Source of the DNA: an uncultured Spirochaetaceae bacterium
GTDB taxonomy: Bacteria; Spirochaetota; Spirochaetia; Sphaerochaetales; Sphaerochaetaceae
DNA length: 33,956 nt
Direction of reading: 5' to 3'
Assembly (NCBI GenBank): GCA_944392735.1
Contig: CALXXR010000167.1
Location: forward strand, 1-33,956
A program made the translations under genes and the position numbers. Shown in pieces: positions 8,474 to 10,158 of this stretch. Positions within the stretch are counted from its first letter, which is position 1; every line of letters starts with the position of its first letter. The notes below the pieces were generated by a model. It was not told where the DNA came from. It did not search any database and saw nothing but the letters and a program-made list of their open reading frames with translations.

Positions 8474-8517
8474 TTCTTCCAAACCCTCCCTATTTTCAAA
8501 AATCTTCAGATAAACAC

Positions 8518-8548
8518 TTGACAGAATTGAACCGGGGGGGGGTAGTCT
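8518..8548 (+). promoter_or_regulatory. Poly-G-containing promoter of the lipoprotein
   Basis: TTGACA (8518-8523), a perfect -35, is followed by a 19-bp spacer containing nine consecutive G, then TAGTCT (8543-8548). The same -10 sequence occurs with an 18-bp spacer before fba, which supports it. The spacer is two bases longer than optimal, so losing one or two G would improve it. Expected transcript start near 8555, ahead of GGAGGAG at 8565-8571. Confidence 0.5.
8534..8542 (+). repeat. Homopolymeric tract of nine G
   Basis: A directly visible mononucleotide run of G9 preceded by CC. It lies between the putative -35 and -10 boxes of the lipoprotein gene. Tracts of this length are prone to slipped-strand length change during replication. 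Confidence 0.95.
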
Positions 8549-8580
8549 GTTATCAGATTAATTTGGAGGAGTGGAATACG

Positions 8581-9882
8581 ATGAAAAAAGTATTCATAGG
8601 AGTGCTCGCAGCACTGATGCTCTTTGCATTCGTGGCTTGCGACAATTCTGGTTCAAATGCGAACCCTGCATACATCGCATATGTAGAGGCAACGCAGAAC
8701 TCAGGTGTTGTTTACGTAGAAGGCGAGAAGGTCGATCCGGCAGACTTCACATTCAAGGGATATGATGTCATTGGAAACGAGGTAGCTACGATTCCTTCGT
8801 CGATGTTCTCAAGCGCTGATCCGGCTCTTACAGCTAAGGATGACAATGCGATTACATTCACATCTTCTGTTTCTAGCATGTATGGTGCTCTTACGGCTGA
8901 GGTTGAGGTTGCTGCAGAGGAAGTCACTGGAATCAAGGTAGATGCAACAAATGCAGAAAAGACATACTACACAGTTATTGCTGATTATGCTTACGAGGAT
9001 GAAGATGCTCGCAAGGAAATAAGCAAGAATGGTATTGTTGTAACTGCTATCTATGAGGGCGGCGAGAAGATCATCGACAATGAACTCGTAAGCTTTGATG
9101 AAAGCAAGATGGGTGACTGGGACGAGGCAGTGGATGTTTGCACAATCACTGTTAAGTTCGCCGAAGAGACAGCAACATTTGATGTAACGCTTGCTGAGAA
9201 TCTTGTTAAGAGCGTTGAGCTGTTGGCAACAAAGGATTACAAGCTTTTCACAGATGTTACTGGCAAGGATGTCCTCAAATATGCAACTTCTGGTAAGGAT
9301 GACACAAATGGCGGCATCTACATGAACAAGATCATGCAGGGTGGTGAGACTGTTCTGATTAAGTCCGAGACCGGCAACATCAAGTATTACAGTGGAGATG
9401 CTGGAGACTACACATTTACATCATGTGATTCTGTTGTAATTCCTGAAAATGGTGGAACGATTACTGTTCGTGCGAAGTATGTCGGAACAGATTGCGCGGT
9501 TGGTGCAACGAGAACTGATGATATTGCAGTAACCGCAGAGAAGGATTCCGTTGCTAAGGTTGAAGTGACAGCAGTTCCTTCTTCACTTAAGAACATCAAC
9601 TACAATGAGGAAGAATCGCTTTCTGGCGTTACTGTAAAGGTGACAATGGCTAGCGGGGATACGCCGGCTACGACTGTTGCTCTTAAGAATGCTGAGTCCG
9701 AGGCAAAGGATAACTACTTCGTCCTGAGCCAGATGGACCTTACAAAAGCAACTGTCGGAGACAGAATTTCCATTACATTCTCTGGTGTTGCAAAAGGTCA
9801 GCCGTTCTCGAAGACGACAGCTGTTCTGATTGTGGCAGATAGCTCAACTGAATCACCAGAGGTTGGTGGATCGAATATCTAA
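8581..9882 (+). CDS. Surface or periplasmic lipoprotein with Ig-like repeats
   Basis: 433 residues. The signal MKKVFIGVLAALMLFAFVAC ends in a lipobox (F-V-A-C20), so Cys20 should be lipidated. The rest reads as three or four beta-rich domains of about 90-100 residues. Two resemble bacterial Ig-like (Big_3) folds: VTGIKVDATNAEKTYYTV to ATFDVTL, and VAKVEVTAVPSSLKNINY to AVLIV, each with a central VTVK/IVVTAIY strand. The exact family is unknown to me. Base composition is visibly more AT-rich than its neighbours (frequent GTT, ACA, ACT, AAT codons), which suggests transfer or relaxed selection. GGAGGAG lies 9 nt before the ATG. An in-frame extension to 8401 is not used. Expression probably depends on the G9 tract upstream. 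Confidence 0.82.
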   Translation: MKKVFIGVLAALMLFAFVACDNSGSNANPAYIAYVEATQNSGVVYVEGEKVDPADFTFKGYDVIGNEVATIPSSMFSSADPALTAKDDNAITFTSSVSSMYGALTAEVEVAAEEVTGIKVDATNAEKTYYTVIADYAYEDEDARKEISKNGIVVTAIYEGGEKIIDNELVSFDESKMGDWDEAVDVCTITVKFAEETATFDVTLAENLVKSVELLATKDYKLFTDVTGKDVLKYATSGKDDTNGGIYMNKIMQGGETVLIKSETGNIKYYSGDAGDYTFTSCDSVVIPENGGTITVRAKYVGTDCAVGATRTDDIAVTAEKDSVAKVEVTAVPSSLKNINYNEEESLSGVTVKVTMASGDTPATTVALKNAESEAKDNYFVLSQMDLTKATVGDRISITFSGVAKGQPFSKTTAVLIVADSSTESPEVGGSNI

Positions 9883-9948: not shown

Positions 9949-10158
9949 ATGGAAGAAAGAAACACGTCCCTCCGGAAACACAGGATTCCCTCAGAGAAAA
10001 GAAAGGAATGCCTAGAGCTCTTTGAGCAGGGATACGGATACAAGAAGACCGCACAGCTTGCAGGACTGAACACCTATACGGTCCGCGAGTACAAGCGCAG
10101 GTATGCTGCCGGGGACAACTCCTGGGCAGAGAAGGGCGGCAGGGCTGCCGTTCTATAA
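9949..10158 (+). CDS. Small helix-turn-helix protein (IS3-OrfA-like, possibly a transposase remnant)
   Basis: 69 residues, preceded by a strong AGGAGG (9938-9943) at good spacing. The core KRKECLELFEQGYGYKKTAQ followed by LAGLNTYTVREYKRRYAAGD is a helix-turn-helix of the type at the N-terminus of IS3/IS150 OrfA transposase subunits (kR.e.V.ly..G.s...iA...G....tVr.w...Y). It is shorter than a full OrfA, there is no OrfB, and no clear terminal inverted repeats bracket it. It is either a stand-alone DNA-binding protein or a relic of an insertion sequence. It lies in the AT-richer block with the lipoprotein. Confidence 0.6.
   Translation: MEERNTSLRKHRIPSEKRKECLELFEQGYGYKKTAQLAGLNTYTVREYKRRYAAGDNSWAEKGGRAAVL

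Follow-up and report, generated by a model that had tools for sequence, protein, structure and literature searches.

Does a run of guanines lodged between the two hexamers of a bacterial promoter act as a switch for the gene behind it, or is it a fixed part of an ordinary promoter? The question arises from a 33,956-nucleotide (nt) stretch of DNA of an uncultured Spirochaetaceae bacterium (contig CALXXR010000167.1), here called the window, to whose numbering all positions refer unless another contig is named. In the window, nine G lie between the -35 and -10 hexamers upstream of a gene for a predicted lipoprotein (8581-9882, forward strand), and the first-pass annotation had proposed phase-variable expression for this gene. 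By comparing the locus with those of related and more distant genomes, we judge it likely that strand slippage in the G9 tract makes this promoter phase-variable at the level of transcription, as part of a switchable lipoprotein repertoire.

A family of poly-G promoters

Direct reading and a pattern search both returned the promoter exactly as it had been annotated. The -35 hexamer TTGACA (8518-8523) and the -10 hexamer TAGTCT (8543-8548), both on the forward strand, enclose a 19-bp spacer (8524-8542) that consists of a fixed part of 10 bp, GAATTGAACC (8524-8533), and the G9 tract (8534-8542), the likely slippage element, which abuts the -10. A G8 run by itself is unremarkable, with as many found in 24 of 100 shuffled windows, while the arrangement TTGACA-N16..19-TAGNCT, a pattern picked after seeing the site, occurs once in the window compared with 0.03 expected in shuffled windows. 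The G run alone could be due to chance; its location between two promoter hexamers is not easily so explained.

Homologues of the window lipoprotein were found in 16 of 60 relatives, and most of these loci have the same layout, with tracts of 6 to 12 G. A search of 48 genomes of the same genus by pattern only (TTGAC-N(9-20)-G6-TA) resulted in 279 sites in 39 of the 48 genomes, compared with 5 sites for the reversed pattern that served as control (totals summed from the results table). The sixth base of the -10, which had been left free in the search, is T in 145 of the 147 sites with at least 8 G, and because this unrequested base is nearly always T, the poly-G sites are taken to be true promoters. 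Their -10 consensus is TAGNCT, which the window's hexamer fits. Across 150 sites the commonest tract is G9 (81 sites, with 26 of G10 and 22 of G8), the commonest spacers are 19 bp (68) and 18 bp (36), and the non-G part of the spacer is most often 10 bp (72), the length also seen in the window. The 12 sites with G6 only have spacers of 18 bp in eight cases and 17 bp in two.

The tract is also where otherwise near-identical promoters differ. In 18 of 21 promoter pairs whose flanks, approximately 156 bases, match at 90% or more, the two tracts have different lengths, with the proviso that pairs share members and are not independent events; the flanks themselves average fewer than one gap column per pair. 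One pair has no substitution in 156 flanking bases and carries G10 in one member and G9 in the other.

Examination of the downstream genes revealed a clear link between these promoters and the exported, candidate surface proteins, mostly lipoproteins, that they would control. An open reading frame (ORF) with a lipobox follows 106 of the 113 pattern-found sites that have a readable gene, mostly 20-45 nt downstream, and the seven remaining include at least one lipoprotein missed by the detection rule and two proteins that look secreted. By comparison, when 16 ordinary TTGACA promoters were taken from a single genome of this genus, only 2 preceded a lipoprotein, one of the two being doubtful (Fisher p = 6e-12 for 106/113 versus 2/16). 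The mature parts of 146 downstream lipoproteins fall into 41 clusters at E 1e-4, with the window protein in the largest (56).

Beyond the genus, the layout occurs in 79 of 395 genomes of the class, representing 24 genera, with a single match in the control. In other spirochaete clades (f24, g29 and g39 genomes; loci L380-L408) the spacer mode is 15-16 bp, compared with 18-19 bp in the genus, and of 31 sites there, 23 lie before lipoprotein genes and 28 before genes for exported proteins. When all species genomes were scanned, many non-spirochaetes were among the matches listed. The free -10 positions of these listed non-spirochaete sites read T52 A68 A67 of 100, from which most of them appear to be promoters, and 47 of 65 genes behind the sites listed look exported, compared with 81 of 194 background ORFs. 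Thirty other genomes, selected for having at least one match (29 non-spirochaete, one Treponema), contain 1 to 32 sites each, and none with the reversed control. These counts suggest that promoters with poly-G spacers are widespread, and under-annotated, among host-associated bacteria. Individual host-associated genomes of other phyla (G410, G415, G419, G423 and G432; loci L101, L116, L133, L141 and L172) hold 13 to 32 sites with none in the control; examples are Streptobacillus notomytis, with 21 poly-G spacer promoters, and rabbit-gut Bacilli, with 32 and 20.

The shared cassette and the window gene

The promoter does not travel alone. The comparisons show that a module of approximately 165 bp, which begins ahead of the -35 and ends near the lipobox cysteine, precedes many otherwise unrelated predicted lipoproteins. 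In the window this promoter-leader cassette (8482-8646, forward strand) comprises 36 bp upstream, the promoter, the 5' untranslated region, the ribosome site and the signal-peptide region, closing just beyond Cys20. The same genome contains a second copy (G000:C165), which is 94% identical over 165 bp, carries G8 where the window has G9, and has no notable similarity to it on either side. Two contigs of another genome (G018, C6 and C48) are identical over approximately 183 bp save for G10 versus G9 and then diverge, and two species (G069 and G032) have approximately 172 bp in common with one mismatch and three gap positions, including G8 versus G10. Across the genus, the homology of best-matching cassettes ends at a median of 6 nt beyond the Cys codon. 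For 64 of 112 sites the best-matching cassette lies within the same genome, compared with 5.6 with shuffled labels. This pattern points to duplication and within-genome homogenisation of the module, presumably by recombination.

Several contigs end or begin inside cassettes (G027 C26 and C27, G064 C15 and C90, as well as G018 C6 and C48), so lipoprotein repertoires are probably undercounted in short-read assemblies.

The gene behind the window cassette starts with an ATG at 8581, with 32 bp between it and the end of TAGTCT (8548) and a Shine-Dalgarno-like GGAGG at 8565-8569. Its ORF of 433 amino acids (aa) opens with the signal peptide MKKVFIGVLAALMLFAFVA and the lipobox FVAC, the predicted leader through the lipobox Cys20 being encoded at 8581-8640 (translation MKKVFIGVLAALMLFAFVAC). 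Both the lipoprotein assignment and the AT-rich composition proposed earlier are borne out, the latter by a GC content of approximately 46-49% in the gene versus mostly 53-60% around it. The Ig-like fold with repeat-like beta domains is not: searches of Pfam and NCBIfam assigned the protein to no family, a PDB sequence search gave no significant match, and bacterial Ig-like domain models matched neither this protein nor two relatives. The AlphaFold model is unusable (mean predicted local distance difference test score, 39), leaving the mature part without an assigned fold.

Elsewhere in the same genome (locus L063, G000:C44, approximately 1500-1510) the leader of another lipoprotein gene contains a G10 tract. 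With this number of G, the frame opened by the ATG meets a stop and the body of the lipoprotein is read in a different one; the gene looks like a translational contingency locus that is OFF in the assembly.

Two further features of the window were noted. The same -10 had been reported upstream of fba, and TTGACC-N18-TAGTCT was indeed read at 20639-20610 on the reverse strand, 27 bp before the start (20582) of the class II fructose-bisphosphate aldolase gene (fba); only GGGG precedes this TAGTCT, making it a promoter of the same -10 type without a slippery tract. Just 3' of the lipoprotein gene, a helix-turn-helix-like ORF of 69 aa (9949-10158, forward strand) looks by eye like the N-terminal part of a transposase or a repressor-type protein and may be a remnant.

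Proposed phase variation and its alternatives

In the phase-variable reading, the tract would gain or lose G during replication, and the spacing between -35 and -10 would shift in single-base steps over approximately 17-20 bp, a range seen as differences between copies. The change in spacing would in turn raise or lower transcription of the lipoprotein, such that expression of each gene probably rises or falls at random with single-base changes in its G run. Since every gene would switch through a tract of its own, the cells of a clonal population should differ in the lipoproteins they carry. The weakest step is the direction of the switch, in which 7-8 G (17-18 bp) would be more active than 9-10 G (19-20 bp). 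The shorter tracts are called ON mainly because the G6 sites, too short to slip readily, mostly have 17-18 bp spacers, as though a promoter unable to switch had to stay closer to the sigma-70 spacer optimum, which is approximately 17 bp.

Several observations weigh against this account. The tract-length differences are differences between paralogues and species, with lengths taken from assemblies, one genome per species. The commonest spacing of consensus TTGACA/TATAAT promoters in the genus is 16 bp, and numbers rise again at 19-20 bp, where repeated orthologues are included, a distribution that does not settle the ON G count; given this peak and the 15-16 bp poly-G spacers of the other clades, the direction could differ from that proposed. 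In addition, the tract is strongly biased in strand and position. With up to 6 nt allowed between tract and -10, we counted 213 matches in the genus with G on the coding strand (a few double-counted) versus 6 with C, and nearly all of the listed G tracts directly touch the -10, preferences that slippage alone would not require. Common descent, or a benefit of G beside the -10 in the manner of an extended -10 context, may explain both.

The same preference for G rather than C, in contact with the -10, is what would be expected if the tract were a fixed functional part of a conventionally regulated promoter, for example as a binding site for a regulator or as G-rich sequence that aids RNA polymerase in the manner of an extended -10, with length differences of little effect. 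The concentration of spacers at 18-19 bp in the genus also fits such a role. A fixed site should keep its length, however, and the tract is the most variable part of near-identical promoters; runs of 8-12 G would presumably be costly to keep unless their instability were useful, and no sigma-70 promoter would be indifferent to spacings that range from 15 to 22 bp. We consider this explanation unlikely, albeit the strongest of the alternatives.

A neutral origin, in which the cassette was multiplied, through duplication and gene conversion, for the sake of its promoter and signal peptide while the homopolymer was carried along and drifted, draws on the within-genome homogenisation described above. 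Hitch-hiking leaves unexplained, however, why the layout recurs with different spacers in other spirochaete clades and in other phyla, where the tie to lipoproteins or exported proteins also holds and where the class-wide and cross-phylum matches already suggest independent origins, and we regard this origin as quite improbable. That the tracts or their lengths are sequencing or assembly artefacts, a suspicion raised by the predominance of metagenome assemblies and by the contigs that end inside cassettes, is scarcely credible, since the tracts lie at one exact place between -35 and -10 on both strands, the assemblies, judging by their record names, stem from several projects and include that of a named Streptobacillus notomytis strain, and only exact G counts could be affected.

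The phase-variable promoter is the reading that we retain. The original proposal is strengthened by recurrence across the genus, by the lipoprotein link and by the length differences between near-identical promoters, all of which are consistent with a switch; its Ig-like component is unconfirmed. On a broader proposal we are evenly divided: the recombining cassette may bring new mature proteins under phase variation as a prefabricated unit, generating a large, independently varying lipoprotein coat, and the layout of G8-10 abutting the -10 may have arisen repeatedly in host-associated bacteria of several phyla. If true, uncultured spirochaetes not known as pathogens diversify their envelope via one shared export-and-switch module, their repertoire is comparable in kind to the phase-variation repertoires of classic pathogens, and a range of G lengths should be visible at every locus in metagenome reads.

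Comparison with known switches

The mechanism is of a known kind, and its genus-wide, modular promoter-leader form is apparently undescribed: a search of literature drawn largely from outside the subscription journals returned no description of a poly-G promoter-leader cassette shared across a genus. Homopolymers are counted in a study of treponeme genomes, the examined section of which contains no description of a poly-G spacer layout (PMC8049484), and a general homopolymer survey emphasises coding tracts (PMC2831843).

The closest parallel in layout is porA of Neisseria meningitidis, where poly-G between the -35 and -10 sets the spacing and the transcription of a surface protein (PMC7864442). 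A homopolymer of at least 8 between the hexamers (G9 in the window) and near-identical promoters that differ in its length are found here too. The porA tract serves one gene, whereas the one described here belongs to a cassette that, within a genus, lies ahead of dozens of unrelated lipoproteins, with a putative effect of tract length.

The comparison with Treponema pallidum tpr genes drawn in the first-pass annotation is apt in mechanism, as this organism is likewise a spirochaete with poly-G in promoter regions (tprL and the subfamily II promoters). Within isolates the tprL tract has between 7 and 11 G, most often 9 G, and its length alters expression, a reporter with 10 G giving output close to background (PMC7864442). 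For tpr genes, the examined passages of that source describe no promoter-leader cassette in common (PMC7864442). The tpr genes encode Tpr outer-membrane proteins, whereas the window gene encodes a putative lipoprotein that matches no Pfam or NCBIfam family and is not a Tpr.

The nearest likeness in overall plan is to the Vlp, Vsa and Vpma systems of mycoplasmas, which are lipoprotein repertoires with conserved 5' regions, divergent mature parts and variation at the level of the promoter. The same repertoire plan would apply here, with the difference that switching in the mycoplasmas proceeds by other repeats or by DNA inversion, whereas in these spirochaetes it would depend on a G tract abutting the -10.
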